Origin: Magnetococcales bacterium
Lineage (GTDB): Bacteria; Pseudomonadota; Magnetococcia; Magnetococcales; DC0425bin3
Assembly (NCBI GenBank): GCA_015228935.1
Contig: JADGCO010000019.1
Coordinates: forward strand, 1-52,052
Length of the DNA: 52,052 bases
Direction: 5' to 3'
The translations under genes and the position numbers were made by a program. Every line of letters starts with the position of its first letter. Within the stretch, counting starts at the first letter, position 1. Of this stretch, positions 6,792 to 39,770 are shown piece by piece. The notes under the pieces were generated by a model. The model was not told the origin of the DNA and did not search any database. It worked only from the letters and a program-made list of their open reading frames with translations.

Positions 6792-8228
6792 ATGCTGCGT
6801 GTTGCCCTGATCAATCCCTTCACCCCGGACGGCAATTTTGTGCCGCCACTCGGTTTGTTGACCTTGGGGGCGATCCTCGAACAACGTGGCCACGATGTCG
6901 CCCTGTTTGACCAGAACCGGAACCCGGATATTGTCAACCATGTGGTCGATTATGCACCTCAGCTCATTGGTTTGACCGCTGTGACATCGGCGGTTTTGAG
7001 TGCCCGGCATCTGGCCCGTCGGCTTCGTGATCATTTGCCGGGGGTGCGGGTGGTGCTGGGCGGGCCGCATCCAACCGCCATGCCCGACGAAGTGATCCAT
7101 TGGCCGGAGGTGGATTTTGTGGTGGTCTCGGAAGGGGAAATTTCCCTGGGACTGCTGGCCGATTGGCTGGCGGCCCGGGGTACGCCGGCCCAACTGGAAA
7201 AAATTCCCGGCCTCTGGTTCAAGGATGCCGGGGGAGTTCGCGCCAATCCGGTCGGGGCATTCCTGACCAGCGATGATCTGGATCGTCTGCCGCGACCCGC
7301 CTACCATTTGCTGAATATCGAGCAGGTTGTCACCCGGATCCGCCACGGGGTGTTTCGGCAGGGACGGCGGGTATTGCCCTACATGGCTTCCCGGGGATGT
7401 CCCTATCTCTGCACCTATTGCAGCGCCATGATGGGACGACGCATGCGGCGGCGACGCCCGGATCTGGTTTTGGACGACTTTCAATTTCTTGTGGATCGGT
7501 ACGGCATTGACGAAATCTATCTCGAAGATGACAATTTCACCCTCTCCCGGGAGTATGCCGCAACCATTCTGGATGGCGTGGTGGCCCGCCGCCTGCCGCT
7601 CACCCTGAAATTTGCCAACGGTATCCGGGTGGACAATCTGCAACCGAGTCTCCTGGAAAAAATGGCGGCCACAGGCGTGCGCAGCCTGAGTTTCGGCCTG
7701 GAGAGCGGTTCACCCAAAGTCCTGAAACTCATGCAAAAAAGCTTGAATCTTGACCGGGTACGCGCCAAGACGGAGATGATCAAGCGGCATGGTTTCCTGG
7801 TCGGAGCCAGCATGATTATCGGCCATCCCGGTGAAACCGAGGCCGATATTCGGGAAAGTTACGCCTTTTTCAAAAGCCTGCGTCTGGACAGCATGGCCGT
7901 GGTCAACCTGATTCCCTTTCCGGGAACTGCCGTGCGGGAACTTTGTGTGGCCAACAACTGGTTGACTCCCCAGGCCCAGGATTGGGACAATTATTATTTC
8001 GATATTGCCCATCCCAAAATACTCATTGCCACGGACCTGTTGAGTCAGGAACAAATAACAAAGCTGTTGCAGGAGATATTTTTCAAATTTTACCTGGATC
8101 CCCGTCGGGTATTGACCTTGTTGCGCCATATGCAGGTGGAGGATATGCTGGAAGGAATCAAACTGGTCCTGCAAAAAATCAAAAACCGGACCCGATCACA
8201 GGATCATGACCCGATCACAGGATCATGA
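6792..8228 (+). CDS. B12-binding-type radical SAM protein (second of two)
   Basis: A 478-residue protein from the ATG at 6792, preceded by CTGGAGAG. Residues 1-140 form the B12-binding-like Rossmann domain (VALINPFTPDGNFVPPLGL, VVLGGPHPTAMPDE). The radical-SAM motif is RGCPYLCTYC with Cys203, Cys207 and Cys210, the standard spacing. SFGLESGSPKVLKLM and MIIGHPGET follow. The DxHxxG motif is not evident, so a cobalamin need not be bound in the classical base-off way. The C terminus runs into the 19-bp tandem repeat that spans the junction with the phosphoesterase gene; its last 11 or so residues are repeat-encoded. It is divergent from the first radical-SAM gene across a 243-base gap. Confidence 0.87.
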   Translation: MLRVALINPFTPDGNFVPPLGLLTLGAILEQRGHDVALFDQNRNPDIVNHVVDYAPQLIGLTAVTSAVLSARHLARRLRDHLPGVRVVLGGPHPTAMPDEVIHWPEVDFVVVSEGEISLGLLADWLAARGTPAQLEKIPGLWFKDAGGVRANPVGAFLTSDDLDRLPRPAYHLLNIEQVVTRIRHGVFRQGRRVLPYMASRGCPYLCTYCSAMMGRRMRRRRPDLVLDDFQFLVDRYGIDEIYLEDDNFTLSREYAATILDGVVARRLPLTLKFANGIRVDNLQPSLLEKMAATGVRSLSFGLESGSPKVLKLMQKSLNLDRVRAKTEMIKRHGFLVGASMIIGHPGETEADIRESYAFFKSLRLDSMAVVNLIPFPGTAVRELCVANNWLTPQAQDWDNYYFDIAHPKILIATDLLSQEQITKLLQEIFFKFYLDPRRVLTLLRHMQVEDMLEGIKLVLQKIKNRTRSQDHDPITGS

Positions 8229-8265
8229 CCCGATCATGGGATCATGACCCGATCACAGGATCATG
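8190..8265 (+). repeat. four tandem 19-bp units across a gene junction
   Basis: The unit ACCCGATCACAGGATCATG is repeated at 8190, 8209, 8228 (two changes) and 8247. Each unit carries two GATC sites and an ATG. As 19 is not a multiple of three, the units are read in different frames: the first two give the C-terminal residues and stop of the radical-SAM gene, and the last ones could supply an alternative start (8244) for the next gene. Confidence 0.95.
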
Positions 8266-37071: not shown

Positions 37072-37384
37072 CGTGACGCCTCCGTTTCAAACACATGGAA
37101 ATTTCAGTCGGTTGTTCATGCGGCCAACAGGCATGATCAGCCAACAGGTGCGATCAGCCAACAGGCGCAATCAAGAAGATTGGAAGGATGGCATCCTCCC
37201 AGGCTCTTAGTTTAGACACAATCAAGATACATGAACAATAAAAAAACAGATACGGTAGCGGTTTGGTTTTGCCTGCACAGGCCGGATTGGATAAACTGGC
37301 AATTATGGAAAAAAACATCGAAGATGGACGGTTGGAGAAAATTGGACCCGGGCGATGCAGCAACGCAGTCAGGCGGAAACGACC
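37072..37384. other. 313-base gap between DUF2059 and ubiU genes
   Basis: Divergent upstream region that should hold promoters for both neighbours. The only clear structure is three 17-bp tandem repeats at 37124-37174, close to the DUF2059 start. I see no reliable -10/-35 pair or FNR box. Confidence 0.6.
37124..37174. repeat. three tandem 17-bp repeats
   Basis: CCAACAGGCATGATCAG and two variants start at 37124, 37141 and 37158. They lie about 55-100 bases upstream of the DUF2059 start and may be binding sites or slippage products. Confidence 0.9.
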
Positions 37385-38389
37385 ATGAAGAAAGTGGAAA
37401 TATTGGCCCCGGCCGGCAACCTGCCCTCGCTGAAAGCGGCGGTGGACAATGGGGCCGATGCGGTTTATTTCGGCTTTGGCAATGCCACCAATGCCCGCAA
37501 CTTCGAAGGATTGAATTTTACCGAAAAAGAGGCGGCATCCGGCATCGCCTACGCCCATGCCCGAGGGGTCAAGGTCAATGTCGTCCTGAATACCTTCCCC
37601 CAGATCAACGATCCCGACATCTGGTATCGCACCGTGGATCTGGCAGCCAGGATTGGTGCCGATGCCATCATTCTGGCCAACCTGGCCCTCCTGAAATATT
37701 GCCGGGACAAGTATCCAGATCTTCCCATCCATCTGTCGGTGCAGGCCTCGGCCAGCAATCAGGCCGCCATCAATTTTTATCAACGCCATTTTGCCATCCA
37801 ACGGGTCATTCTCCCCCGGGTCTTGACAGTGGCCGAAATCCGCGATCTGCGCCAACAGGTCCAGGTTGAACTGGAAGTGTTTGCTTTTGGCGGACTGTGC
37901 GTCATGGCCGAGGGACGCTGTTATCTCTCCTCCTATGTGACCGGCGTCTCACCCAACATTGAAGGGGTTTGTTCCCCGGCCCGCGCCGTCCGTTTTGACA
38001 ACAGCCAGGATAAACTCCAAACCCGCCTCAACGGCATCCTCATCGCCCAGTATGCCCCCGATGAAGAGGCGGCCTATCCCACTGTCTGCAAAGGGCGCTT
38101 TGCAGCCAATGATCAGATTTATCACGTCATGGAAGAACCCGGCTCCCTCAATATTCTGGCCATGCTGCCGGAGGTGATCGCCTCCGGCGTGGCGAGTCTC
38201 AAAATAGAAGGACGCCAACGCACCAAATCCTACGTGGCAACCGTGACCCGCATCATGCGTCAGGCCGTGGATGCCTACTATGCCGATCCGGATCGTTTCC
38301 AGGCCAAGGGAAGCTGGCTCAAAACCTTGAACGCCACCTCCGAAGGAACCACCTATACCCTGGGAACCTATCAGGAAAATTGGCAATGA
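37385..38389 (+). CDS. ubiU: O2-independent ubiquinone hydroxylase subunit UbiU
   Basis: A 334-residue peptidase-U32-family protein. With UbiV it hydroxylates ubiquinone precursors without oxygen, using prephenate as donor (established for E. coli UbiU/V). The 4Fe-4S ligands are all present: Cys172, Cys179, Cys196 and Cys235, offset by three from the E. coli positions. The start at 37385 gives the family N terminus MKKVEILAPAGNLPSLKAAV. The protein ends TYQENWQ; its stop overlaps the ATG of a 40-codon ORF that leads into ubiV. Confidence 0.94.
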   Translation: MKKVEILAPAGNLPSLKAAVDNGADAVYFGFGNATNARNFEGLNFTEKEAASGIAYAHARGVKVNVVLNTFPQINDPDIWYRTVDLAARIGADAIILANLALLKYCRDKYPDLPIHLSVQASASNQAAINFYQRHFAIQRVILPRVLTVAEIRDLRQQVQVELEVFAFGGLCVMAEGRCYLSSYVTGVSPNIEGVCSPARAVRFDNSQDKLQTRLNGILIAQYAPDEEAAYPTVCKGRFAANDQIYHVMEEPGSLNILAMLPEVIASGVASLKIEGRQRTKSYVATVTRIMRQAVDAYYADPDRFQAKGSWLKTLNATSEGTTYTLGTYQENWQ

Positions 38390-38508
38390 ATGGATCCATT
38401 TCCGGAAACCTGTCAGGAGAATCGGCCATGACGGACCTTGTTCAGGAGAACGGCTGGTCAGGAGAATCAGCCATGACGGCCCTTGTTCAGGAGAACGGCT
38501 GGTCATGA
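38386..38508 (+). CDS. possible 40-residue repeat microprotein bridging ubiU and ubiV
   Basis: An ORF of 40 codons fills the whole ubiU-ubiV gap. Its ATG overlaps the ubiU stop (ATGA at 38386-38389) and its stop overlaps the ubiV start (ATGA at 38505-38508). The peptide is MNGSISGNLS followed by two 15-residue repeats (GESAMTDLVQENGWS and GESAMTALVQENGWS). AGGA lies 9 bases before its ATG, and each internal ATG (38428, 38473) has AGGAG about 8 bases upstream. I recognise no family. It may be a translated coupling peptide that keeps ribosomes flowing to ubiV, or just a duplicated spacer in frame by chance. Confidence 0.45.
   Translation: MNGSISGNLSGESAMTDLVQENGWSGESAMTALVQENGWS
38413..38502 (+). 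repeat. 45-bp tandem duplication between ubiU and ubiV
   Basis: Two 45-bp copies, 38413-38457 and 38458-38502, differ at two positions. Each contains two AGGAG ribosome-binding-site-like motifs and one ATG. The segment CAGGAGAACGGCTGGTCA resembles the 3' end of ubiU (CAGGAAAATTGGCAATGA), suggesting that the unit arose from it. Confidence 0.93.
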
Positions 38509-39455
38509 AAATTGCCATCGGTCCTGTTCTTTACGAGTGGGGAAAAAAAGGGATACGGGATTTTTACCGGCGCATGGCTGATGAGACAGCGGCGGATGTT
38601 CTCTACATCGGCGAAGTCATCTGTTCCAAACGCAACCACCTGACCCCGGACGAAATGGCTCTTCTGGCCGAAGAACTCCGTCCCTCAGGCAAGGAGATTG
38701 TCTTTTCGACCCTGGGCCTGGTCATGAGCGGGGAAGAACAGGAGTACATTCAACAGGTGGTGCAACAGGCCACCCGCCTGGGCATCCTGTTCGAGGCCAA
38801 TGACATGGCCGGAATTGCCATGGGCGAAGGACACCCCATGGTGGCCGGACCCCACATCACCACCTACAACCCGGAAACCCTCGATTTTCTTGCAGAAGTC
38901 GGTGTGCGCCGCGTCGTGATTCCGGTAGAACTCTCCCAGGCCATGATCGCCGGTCTCATCCGGCAAAACCGCGCCCGGGTACAGGTGGAAGTGTTCGCCT
39001 ACGGTCGGCTCCCCCTGACGTTTTCGGCCCGTTGTTACACGGCCCGGGCCTTCCATCTGCCCAAAACCAACTGCCAGTACAAATGCGGCGATTTCCCCGA
39101 TGGGATGGTCATGAAAACCCAGGATGGCGTACCCTTCCTGAACATCAACGGCATCCAAACCCTGTCGGAACGACTCTGCAATCTCGTCACCGAAGTGGAA
39201 CAATTGGCCACCATGGGTGTGGACATGATCCGTCTTTCGCCGCAAAGTCGTGACATGACAGCCATCGTGCAGGTCTGGCAGGAGCGTCTGGCAGGCCGGA
39301 TGGACGCCGCCGAGGCCCTGGCACGCCTGAATGAAATCAATCACCAGGAACCTTTCTGCAACGGATATTTTCATGGCCGGGCCGGCCTGGAGTTTGTGGC
39401 CCCCCGCCCGGTCAAACCGCACCTGACGAATGAAGCCCCGACTTCCGGAGAGTGA
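38505..39455 (+). CDS. ubiV: O2-independent ubiquinone hydroxylase subunit UbiV
   Basis: A 316-residue U32-family partner of UbiU. The cluster ligands Cys40, Cys177, Cys190 and Cys194 match the E. coli UbiV set (39, 180, 193, 197) with shifted numbering. It opens MKIAIGPVLYEWGKKGIRDFY and has SARCYTARAFHLPKTNCQYKC around the later ligands. UbiU-UbiV is a heterodimer, which explains tight coupling through the bridging ORF. UbiT, the third member of the anaerobic pathway, is not in this window; a UbiK-like protein follows after 3 bases. Confidence 0.94.
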   Translation: MKIAIGPVLYEWGKKGIRDFYRRMADETAADVLYIGEVICSKRNHLTPDEMALLAEELRPSGKEIVFSTLGLVMSGEEQEYIQQVVQQATRLGILFEANDMAGIAMGEGHPMVAGPHITTYNPETLDFLAEVGVRRVVIPVELSQAMIAGLIRQNRARVQVEVFAYGRLPLTFSARCYTARAFHLPKTNCQYKCGDFPDGMVMKTQDGVPFLNINGIQTLSERLCNLVTEVEQLATMGVDMIRLSPQSRDMTAIVQVWQERLAGRMDAAEALARLNEINHQEPFCNGYFHGRAGLEFVAPRPVKPHLTNEAPTSGE

Positions 39456-39458
39456 ATC

Positions 39459-39770
39459 ATGCAACTTGACAACAATCTGATCGATCAAATCACACAAAAT
39501 GTCCTGGGAATATTTGAAAAAGTCGGAGCAACCCGCGATGAACTCCATCGCCGGATCCACGACGCCGTCAAGGAGGCCATCGTCCATTTTGATATCGTGA
39601 CCCGGGATGAGTTTGATGTCACCGCCGAACTCCTCAGCAAAACCCGCATCAAAGTGGAAGAGATGGAAAAGAAAATTGCCGATCTGGAAAAGCTTCTGGC
39701 CGTCAAGGGAGATGACGAACCCCAGACGGAAGCCAAATCCAAACCGGACAAGGTTGCCAAAAAATCGTAG
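39459..39770 (+). CDS. ubiK: UbiK/YqiC-like accessory factor
   Basis: A 103-residue helical protein with an N-terminal amphipathic helix (LIDQITQNVLGIFEKVG) and a C-terminal coiled coil (VEEMEKKIADLEKLLAV), the layout of UbiK/BMFP proteins. A Lys-rich tail follows. UbiK is an accessory factor that helps assemble the ubiquinone complex on lipid in aerobic E. coli. Its position directly after ubiUV supports a role in ubiquinone synthesis here, but the family is short and low in identity. Confidence 0.8.
   Translation: MQLDNNLIDQITQNVLGIFEKVGATRDELHRRIHDAVKEAIVHFDIVTRDEFDVTAELLSKTRIKVEEMEKKIADLEKLLAVKGDDEPQTEAKSKPDKVAKKS

Follow-up and report, generated by a model that had tools for sequence, protein, structure and literature searches.

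Translation of one gene can be passed on to the next by termination and reinitiation where the two genes meet in an ATGA or TGATG overlap (PMC6728339, PMC10666635). Gaps of about 20-38 nt leave almost no reinitiation, the final 15 nt of the upstream gene are sufficient for it, and gene overlaps are enriched in heteromeric complexes (PMC10666635). Mycobacterial interspersed repetitive units (MIRUs) are described as repeats at the start of genes that hold an internal short ORF coupled at -4 spacing, and this coupling is thought to limit the damage done by insertion (PMC12548453, citing Supply et al. 1997). In another arrangement, translation of the minigene mg2 in the axe-txe leader raises translation of the second cistron in cis (PMC8708949).

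The junction between ubiU and ubiV described here has features in common with each of these systems. Both ends of its bridging ORF are canonical -4 junctions of the termination-reinitiation type, but in this genome two of them follow one another, and the gap is spanned by an ORF of only 40 codons. As with MIRUs, the short ORF meets the downstream gene at -4; however, MIRUs are a mobile, dispersed family, whereas the 45-bp unit found here is confined to a single locus, is derived from the local junction, and cannot be counted as a member of that family. By analogy, the working principle would be the same as that of MIRUs. The mg2 minigene likewise places a tiny ORF shortly ahead of a second cistron, although it has two codons, lies 15 nt before the start, overlaps neither gene, and was not built by junction duplication (PMC8708949). 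Bicistronic designs also use a short ORF that delivers ribosomes to the next start, but there the ORF sits in a 5' leader and not between two structural genes. The same is true of tap-repA of plasmid R1, in which a coupled leader ORF delivers ribosomes to the next start.

UbiU forms a heterodimer with UbiV (PMC6747719). Magnetococcia have been reported to make ubiquinone solely via an O2-independent route that uses UbiUV (PMC11707229), and expression of the ubiUV pair should therefore matter to these bacteria.

Structure of the ubiU-ubiV locus

The window, a stretch of 52,052 nt, is contig C19 of a 4.7-Mb Magnetococcales genome (labeled G000). Two adjacent genes in it exceed the curated NCBIfam cut-offs for UbiU and UbiV, which identifies the anaerobic ubiquinone hydroxylase pair named in the initial annotation (Table 1). 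The start of ubiU is probably 37385, just ahead of the point where the family-model match begins, with 37355 as an alternative. As that annotation had also stated, the 115-nt gap between the genes is bridged by a 40-codon ORF joined to both of them by ATGA overlaps, one of which combines the ubiU stop with the ORF start (38386-38389), and the other the ORF stop with the ubiV start (38505-38508). Each junction has a -4 overlap of the kind seen in termination-reinitiation pairs, whose stop and start overlap (-4 or -1) or are at most a few nt apart. The translation of the ORF is MNGSISGNLSGESAMTDLVQENGWSGESAMTALVQENGWS.

The two 45-bp repeats reported within the ORF are likewise present, each with AGGAG 8 nt ahead of an in-frame ATG. 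Three Shine-Dalgarno-ATG entries lie in a single frame that ends at ubiV (-4.3, -8.1, and -8.1 kcal/mol), where these and all other Shine-Dalgarno energies were computed with an assumed usual CCUCC and not with the genome's own 16S sequence; no 16S was found in the assembly from which an anti-Shine-Dalgarno could be derived. The motif TCAGGAGAA occurs four times in the spacer (38413, 38442, 38458, and 38487). A pattern search of the genome revealed no further copy of the 45-bp unit outside this locus, and the 101-nt array has no second copy in the genome (next-best match 88% over 24 nt, E 0.12). An Rfam element in the spacer was rejected because no match came near threshold, and no unusual RNA structure is predicted at the ubiV start (fold z = -0.45).

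Immediately 3' of ubiV, at 39459-39770, the window holds a BMFP/UbiK-like gene with a Pfam BMFP score of 69.6 bits and just 47 of 100 bits for the UbiK equivalog model. UbiK is a factor of the aerobic complex, unlike the anaerobic UbiU and UbiV encoded beside this gene.

Table 1. Features of the ubiU-ubiV locus and selected duplicated junctions elsewhere in the genome
Feature	Position	Strand	Evidence or property
ubiU	37385..38389	+	NF047963, 498 bits (cut-off 440)
Bridging (candidate relay) ORF, 40 codons	38386..38508	+	-4 overlap with each neighbor
Degenerate copy of ubiU 3' end (38345-38389), including its ATGA	38392..38431	+	Smith-Waterman
45-bp repeat copy 1 (AGGAG-N8-ATGA)	38412..38456	+	Repeat comparison
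Internal in-frame ATG	38428..38430	+	Shine-Dalgarno energy about -8.1 kcal/mol
45-bp repeat copy 2	38457..38501	+	96% identical to copy 1, spacing 45
Internal in-frame ATG	38473..38475	+	Shine-Dalgarno energy about -8.1 kcal/mol
TTCAGGAGAACGGCTGGTC, copy now supplying the ubiV Shine-Dalgarno	38486..38504	+	Shine-Dalgarno -7.4 vs -4.3 kcal/mol in ubiU tail
ubiV	38505..39455	+	NF047965, 346 bits (cut-off 275)
Duplicated ATGA junction, DUF362-like pair	G000:C9:35539-35595		L = 53
Duplicated ATGA junctions: queE-thiE; ABC half-transporter pair; split phage terminase	C27, C22, C23		L = 26; L = 62, weak; L = 29

Spacer origin and conservation

The repeat region had been said to resemble the ubiU 3' end, and the comparison bears this out, with a Smith-Waterman score of 38 that none of 1000 dinucleotide shuffles reached. 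The total displacement at the locus is 119 nt (42 + 45 + 32), which is 2 mod 3. The spacer very probably arose by local duplication of the ubiU-ubiV junction. A match between the spacer and the 5' end of ubiV (p = 0.004) hints at a duplication that spanned the junction, but this alignment is gappy and is not relied on.

In most relatives, the site in the ubiU tail that was copied also bears the Shine-Dalgarno of ubiV. A typical overlapping junction reads TAT CAG GAG AAT TGG CAG TAA TG, which is both the ubiU tail and the ubiV Shine-Dalgarno; the f13 genomes are an exception among overlapping junctions and are without a clear GGAG. The last ubiU codons in G000 are TAT CAG GAA AAT TGG CAA TGA, and the tail, now CAGGAA, pairs with the anti-Shine-Dalgarno at -4.3 kcal/mol. 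The same value is found in the congener G002 and in all but one of the five gapped g17 genomes, the exception being at -1.5, compared to -6.5 to -14.4 kcal/mol in the overlapping relatives. The recently gapped G011, with a 390-nt gap, has kept a strong tail Shine-Dalgarno (-12.3). In G000 it is the copy TTCAGGAGAACGGCTGGTC, within the sole stretch that can be aligned with G002, that now serves ubiV. The local-copy origin and the shift of the Shine-Dalgarno can be seen directly in these comparisons, just as the double overlap can at the junctions, and by the computed energies the two roles of one sequence, UbiU tail and ubiV Shine-Dalgarno, are split between copies.

Among 32 distinct Magnetococcales ubiU-ubiV junctions, 19 overlap (-1), five are at +2, one is at +14, and seven have gaps of 78-390 nt. 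One other congener among the genus genomes examined, G002, has the ubiU-ubiV locus; G001 (76% complete) and G003 yielded no ubiV match. The initial annotation had proposed conservation of the frame in close relatives as a check on its reading. The G002 spacer, of 205 nt, has the same phase as that of G000, and the frame that begins at its ubiU-stop ATG runs for 70 codons without interruption before ending in the ubiV ATGA, with four and one stops in the remaining two forward frames. Its interior, however, is unrelated, and the repeat copy number differs. When the phase is given, 25% of shuffled G002 spacers stay open, and the joint probability of this phase and an open frame is about 1/3 x 0.25 = 0.08.

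The G000 and G002 spacers can be aligned over 27-30 nt beside ubiV only (ATGACnnACC[TTG]TTCAGGAGRACGGC). A G002 peptide, MKALVRASP, considered as an in-frame match to the 45-bp unit, was rejected because it lies inside a dispersed palindromic element of the G002 spacer, and only the 27-30 nt at ubiV therefore count as homologous. This element is about 120 nt long, has the core AGGGCTTCGCCCCGAACCCCACC...CCTCCATCC, and is present in dozens of copies in both G000 and G002; G001 has a different variant. The coupling frame may be conserved between G000 and G002. Judged by its sequence, the peptide is not conserved: about 10 C-terminal residues are common to one congener only, the bridging ORF is absent at the 24 overlapping or +2 junctions, and the peptide has no family match.

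In the g17 gaps, ubiU ends with TAA or TAG and no frame spans the distance to ubiV; the gapped relatives of family f9 are likewise without such a frame, so coupling would be dispensable in both groups. By inspection, the g17 gaps (G036, G044, and G040) have in common a promoter-like TTGCGT-N17/18-TARACT, and ubiV seems to have been made independent of ubiU in this group. The idea that the g1 and g17 spacers descend from one ancestral spacer was rejected, given that the UbiU tree, whose deep branches are weakly supported, does not group them, and that the similarity between the spacers is not significant. Gaps between ubiU and ubiV probably arose more than once. In G044, ubiV is separated from ubiU and is preceded by the end of a RelE/ParE toxin-like gene and then by a stray ubiU-tail copy (GGCACCGATCAGGAAGAGTGGCAGTAG).

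Interpretations of the bridging ORF

We consider it fairly probable that the bridging ORF is a product of junction duplication by which ribosomes leaving ubiU are handed on to ubiV. The ancestral genes would have overlapped by a few nucleotides, with the ubiU tail codons (YQENWQ, CAGGAG) doubling as the Shine-Dalgarno of ubiV. Short local duplications of the junction in the G000 lineage would then have parted the coding and Shine-Dalgarno roles, such that UbiU coding stayed with the first copy, whose strong Shine-Dalgarno disappeared, while the later copy beside ubiV retained that signal. With 115 nt between the genes, ubiV would be expected to lose its coupling, and a short ORF that meets each neighbor in a -4 overlap would reopen a path. 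Ribosomes that end ubiU, or that enter at either internal ATG, would translate the frame and reach the ubiV start, and coupling would persist across a gap that otherwise abolishes it. The peptide itself would have no function. From the sequence we infer translation of the frame, coupling of the two genes by it, and its maintenance by selection. Translational coupling, as suggested in the initial annotation, remains the most sensible function for the ORF, and the frame check in G002 did not refute it. Several considerations weigh against the relay: a Shine-Dalgarno of its own may allow ubiV to be initiated de novo, gapped relatives in g17 and f9 do without such a frame, the ubiV start is not masked by unusual RNA structure, and the open frame of G002 could be due to chance, at about the frequency given above.

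The arrangement could also be a neutral relic: tandem slippage would have inserted the spacer and produced both the double ATGA and the open frame as side effects, with ubiV translated from its own Shine-Dalgarno. Exact duplication of an ATGA junction yields a bridging ORF of this kind if, and only if, its length (L) is 2 mod 3. Such an ORF cannot contain a stop, since both halves keep a native frame, the first that of the downstream head and the second that of the upstream tail. At ubiU-ubiV the copied segment brought its ATGA along and the displacement amounts to 2 mod 3, which leaves a single uninterrupted frame from the ubiU stop to the ubiV start. The earlier argument that a double ATGA is improbable for an unconstrained spacer is therefore wrong as stated. 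With the phase given, 35% of dinucleotide-shuffled G000 spacers stay open (54% with the repeat collapsed). Among 113 same-strand gaps of 50-300 nt in 452 kb, strict double-ATGA filler ORFs number 4 against 2.6 expected and loose ones 10 against 10.2, and a wider scan of 1.24 Mb with a lower length limit gave 13 against 8.4 and 43 against 34.1, respectively; these counts are approximate, the genes having been called by a simple hexamer and Shine-Dalgarno caller. Filler ORFs of the double-ATGA sort are about as common as chance predicts, and tandem repeats are common as well, occurring in 39 of 418 gene gaps of G000. This neutral origin must be taken as a real but lesser possibility, given that the G002 frame is open despite a new interior and a dispersed element, and that duplicated ATGA junctions lean toward the phase a relay needs.

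The remaining explanations assign the spacer other tasks. It might set the UbiU:UbiV ratio by offering ribosomes additional entry sites or by repeated reinitiation, and the three entries in one frame would suit this. Such a function is unlikely: there is no evidence that the heterodimer (PMC6747719) needs an unequal ratio, and copy number differs between the two congeners. A functional microprotein acting on UbiUV, the second proposal of the initial annotation, is not supported and is very improbable. The ORF does have good start sites, and its C-terminal MTxL-QE-G is found in the same frame in G002, but that stretch coincides with the ubiV Shine-Dalgarno, the first ubiU-tail copy is read outside its native frame, and the points made above on conservation count against it as well. 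It is similarly hard to credit that the spacer carries a ubiV promoter, as those of g17 seem to, because nothing promoter-like was found within 37150-38600 and the g17 and g1 spacers are not recognizably homologous.

The locus illustrates how a protein tail doubling as a ribosome-binding site can be split into two specialized copies, and why a bridging ORF is the automatic outcome when an ATGA junction is duplicated by the right length. Should the relay work, ORFs of this type, which go unannotated in many genomes, are functional spacers and not missed proteins, and counts of duplicated junctions per length phase would directly test selection on the coupling of complex subunits.

Duplicated junctions elsewhere in the genome

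A scan for duplicated junctions covered 1.98 Mb of G000 (42%). At all NTGA junctions, eight duplications scored at least 13, compared to 0.06 expected from permutations. The 221 ATGA junctions gave eight matches with scores of at least 10; ubiUV is not one of them, as in that register its copies have drifted too far apart. Six of these matches (five strong, one weak) have lengths of 53, 68, 122, 29, 26, and 62, all of them 2 mod 3 and all open. The other two are 1 mod 3, with L = 19 in a 19-nt repeat array and L = 307 with a broken frame, the latter probably a chance match. By hand calculation, this phase bias (6/8) has p of about 0.02 against an expectation of 1/3 and about 0.14 against 1/2, where phases 1 and 2 only are considered.

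The junction of an amgK-like and a murU-like gene (G000:C1:79230-79300) contains an exact 68-nt duplication and with it a second double-ATGA ORF, MKAIHSTTLPRIQAPGTDQETQA, made of the murU head and the amgK tail. Both congeners and many other relatives have a plain -4 overlap there, and the duplication is found in G000 alone. Between cobJ-like and cbiG-like genes on the minus strand (G000:C1:256430-256620), a further double-ATGA ORF, MNKPALVAIGRRRDGDHEFPAMNKPVLVAITRRDVERDALP, includes two diverged copies of the cbiG head. The 43 ATGA junctions searched in G002 and a further 79 in loci from other species yielded no such duplication, and it is possible that the duplication rate is particular to the G000 genome.

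We offer only tentatively the broader proposal that tandem duplication of junctions recurrently separates coupled genes in this lineage, and that selection keeps the lengths of 2 mod 3, which leave a relay ORF composed of the head of the downstream gene and the tail of the upstream one, so that coupling survives. If this is true, ubiU-ubiV, amgK-murU, cobJ-cbiG, queE-thiE, and others would belong together as relay ORFs that the lineage generated itself, comparable to MIRUs but with no mobile element involved.

A 19-nt array lies in the window at 8191-8264, where four copies (GACCCGATCACAGGATCAT, one of them diverged) extend from the end of a gene into the beginning of the following one, with an ATGA in every frame.
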